Assembly (NCBI RefSeq): GCF_902771435.1
Contig: NZ_CACXXB010000004.1
Coordinates: forward strand, 1 to 64,000
Direction: 5' to 3'
Length of the DNA stretch: 64,000 nucleotides
From: an uncultured Methanobrevibacter sp.
GTDB lineage: Archaea; Methanobacteriota; Methanobacteria; Methanobacteriales; Methanobacteriaceae
In this document: positions 24,625-31,658 of the stretch, in pieces
How the letters are laid out: each line of letters begins with the position of its first letter
How positions within the stretch are numbered: the first letter of the stretch is position 1
Notes under the pieces: model-generated
The model's input: only the letters and a program-made list of their open reading frames with translations
The model's database searches: none
What the model was told of the DNA's origin: nothing
Translations under genes and position numbers: made by a program

Positions 24625-25119
24625 ATGATGGATAGTAGTGAAGCTATTTATGATGGACTTAAAGACAGCGGAATCGATTTTATTGTAAGCGTTCCCTGCG
24701 TAAACCTATCAAAATTATTGAATATGATTGATGAAGATTCAGAGATAATCCATATTCCAGTTACACGTGAAGAGGAAGGAATTGGAATATGTGCAGGAGC
24801 ATATCTCGGCGGGAAAAACCCTGCAATTCTGATGCAGAATTCAGGACTTGGAAACTCAATCAATGCATTGAAATCCCTGATGGAACTGTATGAATTTCCA
24901 CTTTTAATGATAATGAGCCATAGGGGAACAGAAGGCGAAAACATATGCGGACAGGTTCCTATGGGCCAGTCAACTCCAAGAATTTTGGAAGGCATGGATT
25001 TCAAATTCTTCAAACCAGGAAATCCTGAAGGAGCATATGAAGACATAATTGAAGCATGGGACTTATCCACAGAAGAGGGAAGACCTGTCAGCGTACTATT
25101 GGAGATAAAATACTGGTGA
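24625..25119 (+). CDS. comD: Sulfopyruvate decarboxylase alpha subunit
   Basis: The protein has 164 residues. With ComE it decarboxylates sulfopyruvate to sulfoacetaldehyde in coenzyme M synthesis. It is the TPP-pyrimidine-binding half: [12 protein letters not shown] near the N-terminus, the conserved glutamate in [17 protein letters not shown], then [14 protein letters not shown] and MSHRG. Two ATGs in a row occur at 24625 and 24628. comE starts 4 nt after its stop codon. The two-gene form is found in Methanocaldococcus and Methanobacteriales. It converges with the operon containing comA. Confidence 0.93.
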
Positions 25120-25123
25120 TAAC

Positions 25124-25663
25124 ATGGCAAGATATGAAGCTATCGAAGATATAATGAAAAACATTGACGATGAACTAATAGTCTGCAATATCGGATTTCC
25201 ATCAAGAGAATTATACGAAATTGACGACAGGGATGAAAACTTCTATATGATTGGTTCAATGGGGCTTGCCTCATCAATAGGTTTAGGACTGGCACTGGCA
25301 AGACCTGATAAGGACATAGTTGTCATTGACGGAGACGGATCACTTCTGATGAACATGGGATCACTTGTAACTATTTTTGCTGCAAACCCTTCAAATTTAA
25401 CCTGGATTGTTATTGACAATGGCGCCTATGGTTCAACAGGCAATCAGGACACCTATGCACAGCTAATTGATTTGGTTGAAATTGCAAAAAGCGTCGGATT
25501 TAAAAACAGCTATGATTTTAAGGACATTGATTTAAAGGAGATAATAGCCAGCGAAGATGCAAGCTTTATCGTCTACAATACAGAATCCGGCAATTCAAAA
25601 GCACCAATCATTGATTTGACACCAATTGAAATTAAAAAAAGATTCATGAACGCCATCAAATAG
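25124..25663 (+). CDS. comE: Sulfopyruvate decarboxylase beta subunit
   Basis: The protein has 179 residues. It is the TPP-diphosphate-binding half of sulfopyruvate decarboxylase. The thiamine diphosphate motif begins GDGS at residue 70 and ends with the DNG at 98-100, the normal spacing. IGSMGLASSIGLGLALARP is the typical upstream helix. Directly coupled to comD. The stop at 25663 is followed by about 95 nt before the end of the convergent hdrA-like gene. Confidence 0.93.
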   Translation: MARYEAIEDIMKNIDDELIVCNIGFPSRELYEIDDRDENFYMIGSMGLASSIGLGLALARPDKDIVVIDGDGSLLMNMGSLVTIFAANPSNLTWIVIDNGAYGSTGNQDTYAQLIDLVEIAKSVGFKNSYDFKDIDLKEIIASEDASFIVYNTESGNSKAPIIDLTPIEIKKRFMNAIK

Positions 25664-25720
25664 CAATGGCTACATTGAATTCTATTTTTCCTTAAAAAAA
25701 CCATCATCAAATCCATATTA

Positions 25721-25764
25721 GACTAAAAAAAAGAAAAAAATGCAAATTAGTTAAGCACTAATTT
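25721..25764 (-). terminator. Hairpin plus T-run ending the hdr-like operon
   Basis: AAATTAG at 25744-25750 and CTAATTT at 25758-25764 form a 7-bp inverted repeat with a 7-nt loop that includes the stop codon of the hdrA-like gene. On the minus strand the hairpin is followed by two runs of T interrupted by one C, between about 25741 and 25721. This matches T-rich archaeal termination. Confidence 0.55.
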
Positions 25765-28076
25765 ACAGTGTTCTCAGCTTCGTCCAGCTCTGCAATTTTA
25801 GCATCAAAATCATTGAATTTACGGGCAAGACCTGAGAAATAAGGGATATAAACTTTTGAGAATGTGAGTCTTTGAGAATCTTCTCCCAACTCTTCAATTC
25901 TGTCTTTAACACGCTGTATTTTACGTTCAACCTCATCATACATCAAATCACCAGGGAATTCACCGATGAACACTCCGTCAGCACCGTTATCCAGTGCATA
26001 GTGAATATGCTTTGGACTTACACGATTTACTGAAATGACTTTAATGATATGGATTGATTCCGGATATTTGAGTCTGTTAACTCCAATGTTATCAGCTGCA
26101 GTGTATCCGATGTTATCTAAAAATACAAGTATCATGCGCTCGCCCTCTTGCTTTTTAGACAATACTCCCTTGATGGTAGCCAATATCTTTTCGTCAATGT
26201 TACCGTTTACATGAATAGCCCTCTGGTTACATCCAACAAGACATTTACCGCAACCGGTACAGCTCATAGGATCTATATAGATTTCATCATTCTGAATGCT
26301 CATTGATTTGTATTTGCAACGTTTGATACATTCGCCGCAAACGGTACACTTTTTAGTATCGATTTCAGCAATGAACGGTTCTATTTCCACACCGCCATAA
26401 TTATATTCGCTGACCTTTGCTGCTGCGGCTGTCGCCTGCATGATTGAATCTGTTATGTCTTTTGGGTCATGTGCCGTTCCGCAGACGAAAATTCCCTGAA
26501 CATCAGTGGCAATCGGCTTGATTTTCGGATGGGATTCCTTGATAAAACCGTCTTCAGTTGTTCCGACATTCAGGATTTCAGCTATTTCCTTTGTACCTTC
26601 TGACGGTTCCATTGCAGTAGAAAGCACTACCATGTCCGCCTCGATTTCTACAAATTCCCCTTTTAGGGTATCTTCAGTCCTTACTATGAAATTGTCTCCT
26701 TTTTTGACCACTTCACCAGGACGGCCTCTCAAGAACCTCACTTCATTTTCCTGAGTGTGCTTGTAGTATTTTTCAAACATTCCAGGAGTTCTGATATCCG
26801 TATAGCATATTAAAACATCAGTATCAGGATATTTGTGCTTTATGATGTTTGCATTCTTTAGGGCTACAGTACAGCATATCTTTGAACAGTATTTATGTCC
26901 GTCCGGCTTTTCATCTCTTGAACCGACGCACTGTATCATTACAACACGTTTTGGAACTTCACCGTTTGATTTAAGGAGCTTTCCTTTTGTAGGACCGTTA
27001 ACTCCTGTGATACGTCCCAGTTCTGATTGGGTTATTACATCATCATATCTTGTATAACCGTATTCAGGACGCTTGTCCATGTCAAACAGCTTATGGCCTG
27101 TCGCCACGATAATTGATCCTACCTGAAGAGGAATCCTTTCAGGCTTTCCTCTTAACTTGATTGCCTTCATGGTACATGCCTTTACACAGTTACTGCATTT
27201 AGTACAGTTGTCCATGTCAATTACATAGCTTTCAGGATAAGATTGACCGAACGGTCTGTAGATTGCTTTTCTTGTGGAGAGATTGTCATTCCAGTCATTC
27301 GGAACCTCCACTTCACATGCCTCTGCACATTTTCCGCATGCGATACACTTTTCAGTGTCAACATATCTTGGGGATTTCTCTAAAATCAGATTATATGTTC
27401 CTGCCCTTCTTTCAGCTTCAATGACCTTAGTGTTTGTTAAAACGCAAATGTTTTCATTCCAGACAAGCTCGTTTAGAATTGGATTTAATAGACACATTCC
27501 ACATTCTTCAGCTATTTTTACCGGCGAGAAAACCTTACCTATTTTGGCCATATGTCCTCCGATTGATGGGGACTGCTCTATCAATGTTACCTTGATTCCC
27601 TGCTTTGCAAGTGACAGCGCAGCATTCATTCCGGCAATTCCCCCTCCAATGACAGCAACTTCGTCCGGAGTCTGGCAGTAAATCGGATCCACCGCATCGG
27701 ATTGCTTTACCTTTTCAATAGATGCATTTATTAGAGTAATTGCTTTGTCAGTTGCCTTTTGCCTGTCATCGTGAACCCATGAACATTGCTCACGTATATT
27801 TGCCATATCCATCAAATAGGGATTTAGAGGTTTTACATAGTCCTGGAAAGTTTTTTCATGAGAAATCGGTGAACATGCCGCAACCACAACACGGTCAAGG
27901 TCATGGTCAAATATTGCATCACGAATTATCTTACGGCCATTTAAGGAACATAAGTTCTCAAACTGCCCAATGAATTCCACGTCAAGCTCCTGTCTGACCC
28001 TGTCCAAATCAACAATATCTGCAATATTTCCTCCGCATTCACATAAAAACACGCCAACTTTCAAATCACCCCTCAT
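25758..28076 (-). CDS. HdrA-like flavoprotein with cysteine-free MvhD-like domain
   Basis: The protein has 772 residues. It resembles the FAD subunit of heterodisulfide reductase: N-terminal LCECGGNI (C12, C14), FAD-binding VIGGGIAGMNAALSLAKQG near residue 140, and ferredoxin-type motifs CIACGKCAEAC (about 244), CTKCSNCVKAC (about 292), CTVCGECIKRC (about 576) and CTGCGKCLVGC (about 606). Canonical methanogen HdrA stops near residue 650. Here residues 648-772 add an MvhD/FlpD-like domain in which every cysteine normally holding the 2Fe-2S cluster is replaced (FLDNIGY, VNRV, GEFPGDLMY). Last gene of the comA operon, 2 nt after the HdrB-like gene. I infer electron transfer for coenzyme M synthesis or a related reductive step, not the classic heterodisulfide reaction. 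Confidence 0.88.
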   Translation of the reverse strand: MRGDLKVGVFLCECGGNIADIVDLDRVRQELDVEFIGQFENLCSLNGRKIIRDAIFDHDLDRVVVAACSPISHEKTFQDYVKPLNPYLMDMANIREQCSWVHDDRQKATDKAITLINASIEKVKQSDAVDPIYCQTPDEVAVIGGGIAGMNAALSLAKQGIKVTLIEQSPSIGGHMAKIGKVFSPVKIAEECGMCLLNPILNELVWNENICVLTNTKVIEAERRAGTYNLILEKSPRYVDTEKCIACGKCAEACEVEVPNDWNDNLSTRKAIYRPFGQSYPESYVIDMDNCTKCSNCVKACTMKAIKLRGKPERIPLQVGSIIVATGHKLFDMDKRPEYGYTRYDDVITQSELGRITGVNGPTKGKLLKSNGEVPKRVVMIQCVGSRDEKPDGHKYCSKICCTVALKNANIIKHKYPDTDVLICYTDIRTPGMFEKYYKHTQENEVRFLRGRPGEVVKKGDNFIVRTEDTLKGEFVEIEADMVVLSTAMEPSEGTKEIAEILNVGTTEDGFIKESHPKIKPIATDVQGIFVCGTAHDPKDITDSIMQATAAAAKVSEYNYGGVEIEPFIAEIDTKKCTVCGECIKRCKYKSMSIQNDEIYIDPMSCTGCGKCLVGCNQRAIHVNGNIDEKILATIKGVLSKKQEGERMILVFLDNIGYTAADNIGVNRLKYPESIHIIKVISVNRVSPKHIHYALDNGADGVFIGEFPGDLMYDEVERKIQRVKDRIEELGEDSQRLTFSKVYIPYFSGLARKFNDFDAKIAELDEAENTVN

Positions 28077-28078
28077 TT

Positions 28079-29014
28079 TTAAACCTCCTTAAACTCCTTG
28101 ATTACTGAATCTATCGGCACGGTATGGGCTTTTTGTCCAATTACCTTATCCAAATCTCCTCCCATAGCAAGTGCCAAAAATTGTGTTATATTCAGGTGTA
28201 TTGCCCTGAAGTTTCTTCCTTCACGTTCCCCAATCAGATGCTGATACCTGTCAAACTGAATATGGCAGTTCGGACACAAATGAACCAAAATATCAACATC
28301 CTCATCTGCTATTGCATTCATCTTATCTGCTGTAGCATTAAATGACAAATCCGGATTGGAATACCTTTGTCTGAAACCTGTTCCGCAGGTTGCCCTTTTA
28401 TGGTCATACCATCCGATTGTCTCACATCCACATTCCTCAATAAGCTCGTCCATGATGTTTGGATCTCTTACGCCACCAATAGTGTCTTCATAGTGCACTT
28501 TGCAATAATGACATCCATGATGAGTAGCTATTGTATAATCACTTAAATCATATTTAATATTGTCCTTTATTTTATCTTTCTTTCCGTAAAGGATATCAAC
28601 TACATGAAAAATGTTTTCTGTAGGATTCAAATCATCCTTTTCGTATTTCAAGTGAGATAGACCGTTTTCATCAAATAATCTGTTAATGTGCTCTCTTAAA
28701 TCATCTTTTTTGTTTAATAATTTTACTGATTTTTTGTTGATTGCATAACAGGTTGCGCACATCATGACAATGTTCGGCCTTCCAAGTTCTTTAGCTATTT
28801 TAAAATTACGTGCACCAATAGCTGATGTGTCTATCTGGTTGAATACATCAGAATAATGCCCAAGACCTGTGCAGCATGTCTGTTTTTCTGAAATTGCATA
28901 GTCAATTCCGAGCTTATCGAAAACGAATTTTGTTGATGCCTCCACTCCGGGATATTCAACGCTTACAAGACAACTTCTAAAAAGTAAAATGTCCTTATCA
29001 GGAATGTTCTTCAT
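28079..29014 (-). CDS. HdrB-like CCG-domain protein
   Basis: The protein has 311 residues. HdrB binds non-cubane 4Fe-4S clusters through two CCG motifs. The first is complete: C15, C47-C48, C86 and C89. The second has C168, then T209-C210 where two cysteines are expected, then C247 and C250. An extra C171 lies beside C168. It is therefore a paralogue with an altered second site. Its start overlaps the HdrC-like gene by 17 nt and its stop is 2 nt from the HdrA-like start, so the three subunits are made together. Canonical HdrB pairs that reduce CoM-S-S-CoB keep both CC pairs, so a different substrate is likely. Confidence 0.85.
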   Translation of the reverse strand: MKNIPDKDILLFRSCLVSVEYPGVEASTKFVFDKLGIDYAISEKQTCCTGLGHYSDVFNQIDTSAIGARNFKIAKELGRPNIVMMCATCYAINKKSVKLLNKKDDLREHINRLFDENGLSHLKYEKDDLNPTENIFHVVDILYGKKDKIKDNIKYDLSDYTIATHHGCHYCKVHYEDTIGGVRDPNIMDELIEECGCETIGWYDHKRATCGTGFRQRYSNPDLSFNATADKMNAIADEDVDILVHLCPNCHIQFDRYQHLIGEREGRNFRAIHLNITQFLALAMGGDLDKVIGQKAHTVPIDSVIKEFKEV

Positions 29015-29612
29015 TGTCTCCCTCCTGAGATGCTCTTATTTTTTCAATCTTTGCTTTAAAACCAGTTATTGTTAATATTTTACTGACCTCATCTATTACA
29101 TCATCAGACGGCATTAATGGAGGGTCCAACTCCAGTTCATTTCTTATTTCATCCAGATGCTGTCTGAAGTCCCACCATCCCGGAACATCACGGTCAATGT
29201 CTGTGAAAAATATTTCAGGAATTGCTCCAATTGCTGCAGTGAAGTATGAATCTGCAAAGCCCATATATTCATAGAGCTTTTCATATCCCATTTCATTTTC
29301 GATTGCAATCTGCTTTAGAATCTGATTTACTTCACATACGCTGTTTCCGACAGGACAAACGCTGTGGCATGTGTAGCAGTAAAAACAGTTCCAGATATTA
29401 TCATCCTCTAAAATTGTTTCATCACCATCCAAGACCCTTTCTATAATTTCACGGGGATTATAATCAGAGTGGCGGGCAGCAGGACATGTTGATGTACACA
29501 TTCCACACTGGACGCATTTCAAAACTCCCTCATCTTTTGAGTTTTTTACATCATTAATGATTTCCACTGCAAACTCGATTGGCGAATCTGTAATCTTCTG
29601 TTGGCTGGACAA
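28998..29612 (-). CDS. HdrC-like iron-sulfur protein
   Basis: The protein has 204 residues. Two classical 4Fe-4S motifs: C33, C36, C39, C43 (CVQCGMCTSTC) and C76, C79, C82, C86 (CFYCYTCHSVC). This is the HdrC arrangement that wires HdrA to HdrB. It is slightly longer than typical HdrC at both ends. The position between the DUF39/ferredoxin gene (9 nt upstream) and the HdrB-like gene (17-nt overlap) places it in the comA operon. Confidence 0.87.
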   Translation of the reverse strand: MSSQQKITDSPIEFAVEIINDVKNSKDEGVLKCVQCGMCTSTCPAARHSDYNPREIIERVLDGDETILEDDNIWNCFYCYTCHSVCPVGNSVCEVNQILKQIAIENEMGYEKLYEYMGFADSYFTAAIGAIPEIFFTDIDRDVPGWWDFRQHLDEIRNELELDPPLMPSDDVIDEVSKILTITGFKAKIEKIRASQEGDNEEHS

Positions 29613-29621
29613 ATTTACACC

Positions 29622-30884
29622 TCATAACTTAAACTCTTTTGATTCAATCATTTTCTTCAATTTTAAGGACAGCTTATTTCCCCTTAATCTGTCTGATTGC
29701 CTGCATATGATTGGAATGTTAACATCACTGCCGTTAATGTTCAAATCAACACTGCCTATGTCCATGTCAAATGCATCATTTTTACAGTAACTGACACACA
29801 TTCCGCATCCGTAACAGTGCGCAATGTTTAATTTCTCTTTTTTGAATGCGTTTGTCGGACAGATTTCTTCAACTATACAACTATCACATTTTGAGCAGTT
29901 ATCTCTATTATATTGGGGTCTTAAGTCATATTCTCCCCAAAGCTTAGCATAATTGGTTTCAGCAAGCGGCAAATGACGTCCTTTAATATCCGCTACAGGT
30001 ATATCAACCATATCATCAGTTATTAAAAGATTATTATAGATTTCCTCATTTAATACAGGTATTGGAATAGCTACAGTATCATATATTTCTCCGCCCTGAC
30101 CTGTCTTGAATCCTCCTATATAATATGGGTCCATTTTACACAAATCGGCAGCCAGCATAAGATTCGGTTTTTCTGCACTTGATCTTGTGCCGTCACCCAA
30201 TATGTATCCCTGGGCGCCATTTATCAGAACTTTTGAACCCTCTTTTATTACGTTGTGAGGAATATCGTTTTGAAGCGGATTCAAATCTCCGCAACCTGAA
30301 AATGTCAGACCCCTTAAGTTACCTTCCAGAGGTGTTGCAGCGAATATGGAACTAACTGCTTCCTTGTTTGGATTTGTAAATGCAGTATAATTTTTAAATG
30401 CCATTCGTGCACCGATGAGCTGTCCACGGGTGATATCTTCAATGGTTATTGTGTTTTCAATTGTTTTGCCGTCGGCGCTTTCCACACGTACATCAATTTC
30501 CCTACCCTCAAGAAGGTCTTTCAGCAGGAATCCTCCACCATAGTTTTCATCATATATCGAATGTGCAGTTCCGTGAAGTATTGCATCCACTGAGCCCAGC
30601 CATTCGTTTGGACATGGCCCTGCATATGCAGGCACTCCATTCAGATAAACTTCAGATGCTCTTATGAATTCTCCAGGCTCTGACACGATGAAGTTTAGAA
30701 TGGCTGCAGTTCCGCTCATTACTCCACATGTTCCTGTTGTTACAACATCAACATCTTCAAAACTTGGAGCGTTTCCTTTCTTTATCAGCTTTTTGAATTC
30801 TTCAGCAGTATAGATATTAGCTTCGCCCTTTTCAATCTTTTCATTGATTTGGGTTATAGTACGATTTTTAGTCAATTTAATCAA
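29622..30884 (-). CDS. DUF39/COG1900 sulfurtransferase-like protein with ferredoxin domain
   Basis: The protein has 420 residues. Residues 1 to about 330 form the DUF39 domain known from L-aspartate-semialdehyde sulfurtransferase, which makes homocysteine from sulfide. Conserved cysteines: C53 in TTGTCGVMSG, C91 in AGPCPNEW, and one in SGCGDLNPLQND. A two-cluster ferredoxin domain follows (CSKCDSCIVEEICP and CYGCGMCVSYC), ending in an 80-residue tail. In Methanosarcina the ferredoxin part is a separate protein. It lies 3 nt after comA and before the HdrC-like gene. Either homocysteine formation or an analogous thiol-forming step on a CoM precursor fits; the gene context favours the second. 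Confidence 0.83.
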   Translation of the reverse strand: MIKLTKNRTITQINEKIEKGEANIYTAEEFKKLIKKGNAPSFEDVDVVTTGTCGVMSGTAAILNFIVSEPGEFIRASEVYLNGVPAYAGPCPNEWLGSVDAILHGTAHSIYDENYGGGFLLKDLLEGREIDVRVESADGKTIENTITIEDITRGQLIGARMAFKNYTAFTNPNKEAVSSIFAATPLEGNLRGLTFSGCGDLNPLQNDIPHNVIKEGSKVLINGAQGYILGDGTRSSAEKPNLMLAADLCKMDPYYIGGFKTGQGGEIYDTVAIPIPVLNEEIYNNLLITDDMVDIPVADIKGRHLPLAETNYAKLWGEYDLRPQYNRDNCSKCDSCIVEEICPTNAFKKEKLNIAHCYGCGMCVSYCKNDAFDMDIGSVDLNINGSDVNIPIICRQSDRLRGNKLSLKLKKMIESKEFKL

Positions 30885-30887
30885 CCT

Positions 30888-31658
30888 TTATATTTTTCCC
30901 AGAGTATCTCCCCTTAATCCTCTCCTTAGGGTTTCAAGAGAGGTGATGTCATCTGAGGAGACATTTCCTAAATTAACAGTATTTCCAAGTTTTAAAATGA
31001 AAAATACCTGTTGGTCCTTGTTAGGTGCTTCCCAAAGTATTTTATCGGAGTCAAAATTATCCAGAATATAGTCAATTTCATCTTCTTTTGCTTTACCTGC
31101 CTTATCAAATATTCCTATGTTTTTTCCACCTTCCCTTGCCTCTACAATAATCAATGAAGAGCCGGCATCCAATTCTTCCTGCATATATTGAATTCTCTCG
31201 TCCAATGTGAGTTCCTTATCCAGATTAGGGTCCTTTTTCCCGACTTCAGACAACACTTCAAATCCATTGTCCCTGGCAAGTTCTATGCATTCCACTTTAC
31301 GCTCATGCGCAATATTTGTTGAACCGTCAGATACTTCAATGGCCGGAAAACCTAACATGTGGGCCTCATCGAAGAATTCCTCCAGTTTATCATTCATGTA
31401 AGCAAGTTCAAACAATGTTCCACCAGTATAAGGAGTGATTTCATGCGCCTTATACATTTCAACCTTGGCTTTTATTATGTCCTGTTCATGTACGATTGAG
31501 GTTCCCCAACCGAATTTCAAATAATCCACATATTCTCCGGAAATATCCATCAGGCTTTCGGCTGTTTGCAGGCCTAAACCTTTGTCTAAAACCATGGTGA
31601 TTCCACATTTTCTAGGCTTTTCTTCTCTTTTTTTTGATAAAAATTCAAAAGATTTCAA
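30888..31658 (-). CDS. comA: Phosphosulfolactate synthase
   Basis: The protein has 256 residues. It adds sulfite to phosphoenolpyruvate, the first step of this coenzyme M route. TIM-barrel family signatures are present: TMVLDKGLGL, YLKFGWGTS, ITPYTGGTLFE, AIEVSDGST, VLSEVGKKDP and LIIVEAREGGKN. Length matches ComA. First gene of a five-gene operon (comA, DUF39, hdrC-, hdrB-, hdrA-like). comB and comC are not in the window. AT-rich promoter region at 31660-31740. Confidence 0.95.
   Translation of the reverse strand: MKSFEFLSKKREEKPRKCGITMVLDKGLGLQTAESLMDISGEYVDYLKFGWGTSIVHEQDIIKAKVEMYKAHEITPYTGGTLFELAYMNDKLEEFFDEAHMLGFPAIEVSDGSTNIAHERKVECIELARDNGFEVLSEVGKKDPNLDKELTLDERIQYMQEELDAGSSLIIVEAREGGKNIGIFDKAGKAKEDEIDYILDNFDSDKILWEAPNKDQQVFFILKLGNTVNLGNVSSDDITSLETLRRGLRGDTLGKI

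Follow-up and report, generated by a model that had tools for sequence, protein, structure and literature searches.

An HdrB1-type protein with an altered second CCG motif, from a clade linked to coenzyme M synthesis in Methanobacteriaceae

A 64,000-nucleotide stretch of a contig from an uncultured Methanobrevibacter sp. (hereafter the window) encodes an HdrB-like protein in which threonine occupies the position of one cluster-ligating cysteine. This ligand-variant HdrB belongs to a known clade whose function is unsettled and which in Methanobacteriaceae is linked to the synthesis of coenzyme M (CoM). We tentatively favour the reading that the gene product acts as catalytic subunit in an HdrABC complex of the HdrB1 type, which differs from the canonical heterodisulfide reductase also encoded in this genome, and that this complex is a thiol-redox system for the synthesis or upkeep of CoM and not a product of decay. 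A direct role as the reductase of the CoM synthase ComF is a proposal, not a result. The features of the locus are collected in Table 1.

Table 1. Genes and codons of the HdrB1 locus, in positions of the window
Feature	Position	Strand	Description	Basis
comD	24625..25119	+	sulfopyruvate decarboxylase alpha	TIGR03845, 226.9 bits
comE	25124..25663	+	sulfopyruvate decarboxylase beta; converges on hdrA across a 94-base gap	TIGR03846, 245 bits
hdrA	25758..28076	-	772 aa; starts 2 bases past hdrB	NF041891, 1402.8 bits
hdrB (HdrB1-type)	28079..29014	-	311 aa	NF041780, ORF call
Thr209	28388..28390	-	codon ACC; aligns with Cys193 of 5ODC HdrB	alignment, codon read
Cys171	28502..28504	-	codon TGC	alignment, codon read
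hdrC	28998..29612	-	two CX2CX2CX3C motifs; 17-base overlap with hdrB	NF041890, 326.9 bits
MMP16	29622..30884	-	methanogenesis marker 16 = ComF, coenzyme M synthase; COG1900 and ferredoxin domain	TIGR03287, 539.3 bits; PF01837
comA	30888..31658	-	phosphosulfolactate synthase	TIGR03849, 327.2 bits

The protein scored 536.9 bits against NF041780 (HdrB1; curated cut-off 450), a family that NCBI names ferredoxin:CoB-CoM heterodisulfide reductase subunit HdrB, and 174.6 bits against TIGR03288 (canonical HdrB), which is below the cut-off of 345.15. The CCG domain PF02754 matched two stretches of it with 73.7 bits (gathering threshold 20.6), and it is encoded together with matching HdrC and HdrA subunits, both of which scored above the cut-offs of their families. 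The same genome holds one canonical HdrB with a CC pair (paralogue G000:C3:94471), and a 98% identical copy of the HdrB described here was found in an uncultured Methanobrevibacter MAG.

Cysteines are located at positions 15, 47, 48, 86, 89, 168, 171, 195, 197, 210, 247 and 250, of which C195 and C197, missing from the list in the initial annotation, are conserved in close relatives only. Alignment with chain B of 5ODC placed C15, C47, C48, C86 and C89 on Cys9, Cys41, Cys42, Cys78 and Cys81, so the first (proximal) CCG site is complete as had been stated, and placed C168, T209, C210, C247 and C250 on Cys153, Cys193, Cys194, Cys231 and Cys234. The second (distal) site consequently retains four of its five ligands, together with the additional C171, and Cys193 to Thr209, the first cysteine of the second CC pair, is the only ligand position changed. 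Both the codon and the alignment thus bear out the description of an HdrB paralogue with threonine at this place; all other ligand positions are occupied by cysteine.

Beyond the phylum, the history of the substitution was followed in Methanosarcinaceae-like genomes, in a pair of genomes from another archaeal phylum and, among bacteria, in MAGs from Thermoleophilia, other Actinomycetota and Dormiibacterota. Family f30 is probably Methanosarcinaceae, judged in part from its high-scoring HdrA1-type gene and the control hit described next. Within the phylum, 107 of 152 genomes had an HdrB1 above the cut-off in the search with the NF041780-type HMM, as did the M. acetivorans control genome. A pattern scan of contigs demanding CHYCK (with two TGC codons) and CGxGF gave 41 hits, two of whose loci (L067 and L083) hold no HdrB; since the pattern includes C171 and favours members that bear it, the hits were used for residue 209 and not for the frequency of C171.

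In the joint alignment, each of the 112 clade rows that span residue 209 had Thr, Ser or His there, and each of the 32 canonical HdrBs had Cys. Methanobacteriaceae (n = 59) carried 54 Thr, 3 His and 2 Ser, Methanosarcinaceae carried Thr in 30/30, and the bacterial members from Actinomycetota and Dormiibacterota carried His in 23/23. A maximum-likelihood tree computed without columns 171 and 209 separated the wider clade, including an HdrC-HdrB fusion of another archaeal phylum (family f17), from canonical HdrB with full support, although the program warned of long branches of the fusion that affect its placement. The members without Cys209 grouped together at 93/88 support, requiring a single change between Cys and non-Cys at this site. 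Judged from alignment and tree, the non-Cys209 state is a fixed, old state of the clade that predates its spread over archaea and bacteria.

Since this fixed state extends to the HdrB1 of Methanosarcina, Thr209 is not a loss within this gene. The expression "missing one cysteine" therefore holds for an altered motif, whose cluster and substrate may differ, but not for a recent loss. The one replaced ligand residue could also be read as the mark of a decaying or non-functional paralogue or of a sequencing error, which is virtually inconceivable here, because Thr209 recurs over independent genomes and genera, the other ligands are invariant and the frames are intact. Sequencing error and local loss are both ruled out by the conservation of a non-cysteine residue in every clade member covering the site.

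In the window, the minus strand carries comA, MMP16, hdrC, hdrB and hdrA as one operon, the genes being spaced by 3, 9, -17 and 2 bases, and comDE is oriented head-on to it. MMP16 functions as the coenzyme M synthase ComF (PMC12068725); comA, comD, comE and MMP16 are all present within 24625-31658, each above its curated cut-off. The C-terminal MvhD/FlpD-like domain of HdrA (PF02662, residues 649-764) contains no cysteine at all and so cannot bind the [2Fe-2S] cluster of MvhD, making electron entry of the Mvh-hydrogenase type unavailable there. The full-length HdrA orthologues examined have at most one cysteine in this domain.

The neighbourhood recurs in several arrangements in other genomes, and in many gut methanogens the HdrB1 gene is part of the operon for CoM synthesis. 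Among Methanobacteriaceae, comA-MMP16-hdrCBA was found in L048 and L050, hdrCBA followed by comDE in L036, and comDE, hdrCBA and a divergent MMP16 in L035. Locus L045 carries a second hdrC-hdrB-MMP16 set that no hdrA adjoins, another hdrCBA being located elsewhere in the genome, and the Methanobrevibacter-like L047 features a tandem duplication of MMP16-hdrC-hdrB-hdrA whose second HdrB has Ser209. In the other archaeal phylum, the fused HdrC-HdrB of family f17 (L126 and L127) is divergent to MMP16, cysteate synthase and a fused comDE. The linkage is not universal: CoM genes were not near HdrB1 in L038-L044, L046, L049, L051 and L052, several of which are short stretches, roughly half the genera of Methanobacteriaceae had HdrB1 apart from CoM genes, and no CoM genes adjoined it in the two Methanosarcinaceae neighbourhoods examined. 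A gene for a large subunit of the aconitase/homoaconitase family follows hdrA-hdrC-hdrB in two Methanosarcinaceae-like loci (L124:7307-8569 and L125:9343-10674).

The distribution of the genes over genomes follows the same association. Among 139 Methanobacteriaceae genomes, HdrB1 and MMP16 were both present in 105 and both absent in 24, while 3 had HdrB1 only and 7 had MMP16 only (Fisher p = 1e-17, a value that, like the following one, ignores kinship, related genomes not being independent). Restriction to genomes at least 90% complete gave 67 with both, 8 with neither, 1 with HdrB1 only and 2 with MMP16 only (p = 2e-8). The search behind these counts, at E<=1e-60, also took in two canonical HdrBs (G004 and G005; the HdrB of L033 is canonical), and the number of HdrB1 genomes is accordingly 108 and not 110. 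The double losses span at least three genera (g1, g6 and g9), nearly all double losers also lack comA, and the dedicated hdrA has the same pattern of presence and absence as HdrB1, with canonical HdrB retained in the losers checked (for example G024, G013 and G028). One of them, G024, appears to resemble M. ruminantium, a species whose strain M1 is listed as auxotrophic for CoM (PMC12068725). In three genomes (G016, G065 and G101) a matching hdrA stands without an HdrB1 hit, probably because of gaps in the assembly or a broken gene. Co-loss of adjacent genes may represent one deletion. MMP16 occurs without HdrB1 in two fairly complete genomes (G138 and G143) and in 12 of 12 MMP16 genomes from other families of the phylum, indicating that ComF is not strictly dependent on HdrB1. 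What these data show is a genetic tie between the HdrB1 complex and CoM synthesis in Methanobacteriaceae.

These patterns bear on a role in energy metabolism, in which the complex would be a ferredoxin-oxidising, F420-linked bifurcating or confurcating Hdr and its nearness to CoM genes would be incidental. Such a role in methylotrophic growth has been proposed for HdrA1B1C1 of M. acetivorans (PMC6019823), and the NCBI family name points to it as well. We consider it improbable, as the linkage to CoM genes is repeated under several gene orders and extends to a second phylum, and HdrB1 is lost together with MMP16; PMC6019823 itself states that the role needs validation.

Published work on M. acetivorans provides a further line of evidence. 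MMP16 is the main CoM synthase of this organism, its deletion strain requires CoM in the absence of sulfide, and the deletion raised the expression of hdrABC (PMC12068725). Deletion of hdrA1B1C1 prolonged the doubling time by 81% relative to the parent with cysteine as the sole sulfur source and by 19% with sulfide, and the hdrABC deletion strain was not rescued by CoM alone but was rescued by CoM plus acetate (PMC9963511). The induction of hdrABC and the slower growth of its deletion strain on cysteine, the condition under which the MMP16 deletion strain requires CoM, point the same way as the link between HdrB1 and CoM synthesis in Methanobacteriaceae; the lack of rescue by CoM alone speaks against it.

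The rise of hdrABC was interpreted by the authors of PMC12068725 as increased recycling of CoM-S-S-CoB, which agrees with the view that the enzyme is an ordinary reductase of heterodisulfide (or CoM disulfide), simply co-regulated with CoM synthesis, which recycles CoM-S-S-CoB when CoM is scarce and tolerates Thr209 with its substrate unchanged. The protein shares its fold and a 30% identical core with the HdrB of solved Hdr complexes, and it retains the proximal site and, in the distal one, the residues that bind the catalytic iron, all of which would suit such an enzyme. It is nevertheless a rather unlikely explanation, for a canonical HdrB is already present in these genomes, and the genomes without HdrB1-HdrA are mostly those that lack CoM synthesis and keep the canonical enzyme, even though they must still form CoM-S-S-CoB from imported CoM. 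A CoM-linked role of the HdrB1-type complex is favoured in view of the operon, the recurring proximity in varied gene orders and a second phylum, the co-loss with MMP16 and the M. acetivorans literature.

For this favoured role, electrons would pass from HdrA through HdrC to HdrB and on to the supply of CoM. HdrB could directly feed ComF the electrons for the conversion of sulfoacetaldehyde and sulfur to CoM, the need of ComF, two or four electrons, being reported as unclear; it could reduce a persulfide or disulfide sulfur carrier used by ComF; or it could keep newly made CoM in the reduced form. A complex dedicated to the ComF step, supplying either electrons or reduced sulfur for the formation of CoM from sulfoacetaldehyde, is in itself an unlikely specification of the favoured role, albeit one in which a single canonical noncubane site would suffice, because one thiol is handled and no heterodisulfide is split between two clusters. 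If true, it would also change how the debated function of HdrA1B1C1 in Methanosarcina is seen.

The remaining ligands allow some expectations about the distal cluster. In Hdr, the bridging cysteines (81 and 234) hold the catalytic iron of each noncubane cluster (PMC13083937). In the HdrB described here, the proximal site would bear a normal noncubane [4Fe-4S] cluster. The distal site would carry a modified cluster, with the catalytic iron expected to stay, since both C210, the second cysteine of the pair, and the bridging C250 are kept, and with the far end expected to change, since the first cysteine of the pair is replaced by Thr209. Ligation of this far end may involve C168 with C171 here, and C168 with a non-cysteine ligand in Methanosarcinaceae.

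C171 forms a CX2C pair with C168. Residue 171 is Cys in Methanobacteriaceae (59/59) and in bacteria (23/23, from loci collected with a pattern that demanded it), Tyr in Methanosarcinaceae and Leu in canonical HdrB. Its invariance in the first two groups and the CX2C pair fit the notion that C171 takes over from the lost ligand and yields a cluster functionally equivalent to the canonical noncubane [4Fe-4S] one. That notion is doubtful, because in 30/30 Methanosarcinaceae the site exists with Tyr171 and the same Thr209; as a universal substitute ligand C171 is ruled out, and the rescue considered in the initial annotation is not general. The AlphaFold model is folded like HdrB (TM 0.80-0.83 against Hdr chains in Foldseek), with the cluster loops that bear these residues at pLDDT < 50, so the geometry of the cluster is not readable from it and is not informative on replacement. 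In Methanobacteriaceae and bacteria, C171 could ligate the far end of the distal cluster.

HdrBs with the CHYCK motif and His209 are encoded at high-GC loci up to L090, including L054, L055, L058-L061 and L063-L066, from Actinomycetota and Dormiibacterota. The two long bacterial HdrA proteins scanned (L063 and L085) contain a GltD-like insert. A COG1900 protein was not found in any of 10 bacterial His209 genomes, and at L065 the HdrB lies among NADH/hydrogenase-like genes, which separates the ligand change from the link to CoM. Thr209 as an adaptation to CoM synthesis is disfavoured, given these His209 bacteria and a cysteine change that is common to the whole clade on the tree.

The locus bears on where the final step of CoM synthesis obtains its electrons and on what HdrA1B1C1 really does, and its operon structure makes the CoM link directly testable in gut methanogens with and without a CoM requirement. 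A conserved ligand-variant HdrB also offers a natural comparison for noncubane iron-sulfur chemistry. No description of the ligand variant or of the HdrABC-ComF linkage was found in the open-access literature, subscription papers and figures being outside that search.

Among known systems, the closest is the HdrB1 of Methanosarcina HdrA1B1C1, which belongs to the same NF041780 family above the cut-off, has the same Thr209 and, for two Methanosarcinaceae sequences, shares 45-50% identity with the protein described here, but differs in bearing Tyr171 instead of Cys and in having no adjoining CoM genes in the two neighbourhoods mentioned. The canonical HdrB of HdrABC-MvhAGD (5ODC, 8RVU and 7BKB) has the same two-domain CCG fold, within the TM range given above, and the same other ligand positions, whereas it has Cys193 in place of the threonine, is only ~30% identical and stands on a separate branch.

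The CCG domains of mycobacterial EtfD (9OJN; PMC13083937) likewise have one cysteine of a CC pair changed to Thr within the same fold. In EtfD, the threonine at the second position (C538-T539) costs the cluster its fourth iron, so that a linear [3Fe-4S] cluster results (PMC13083937), while in the HdrB of the window the first cysteine is replaced and C210 is kept, so that a linear [3Fe-4S] cluster of the EtfD type cannot be assumed. The HdrC-HdrB fusion of family f17 similarly places HdrBC beside the CoM synthase and comDE with one CCG site altered. Unlike the HdrB of the window, whose altered site is distal, the fusion is altered at the proximal site (Ser at the C89 position in both sequences and at the C47 position in one) and complete at the distal one. 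In both the clade of the window's HdrB and the f17 fusion, a CoM-linked HdrB keeps one full site, a likeness that, with few lineages, may be coincidence.
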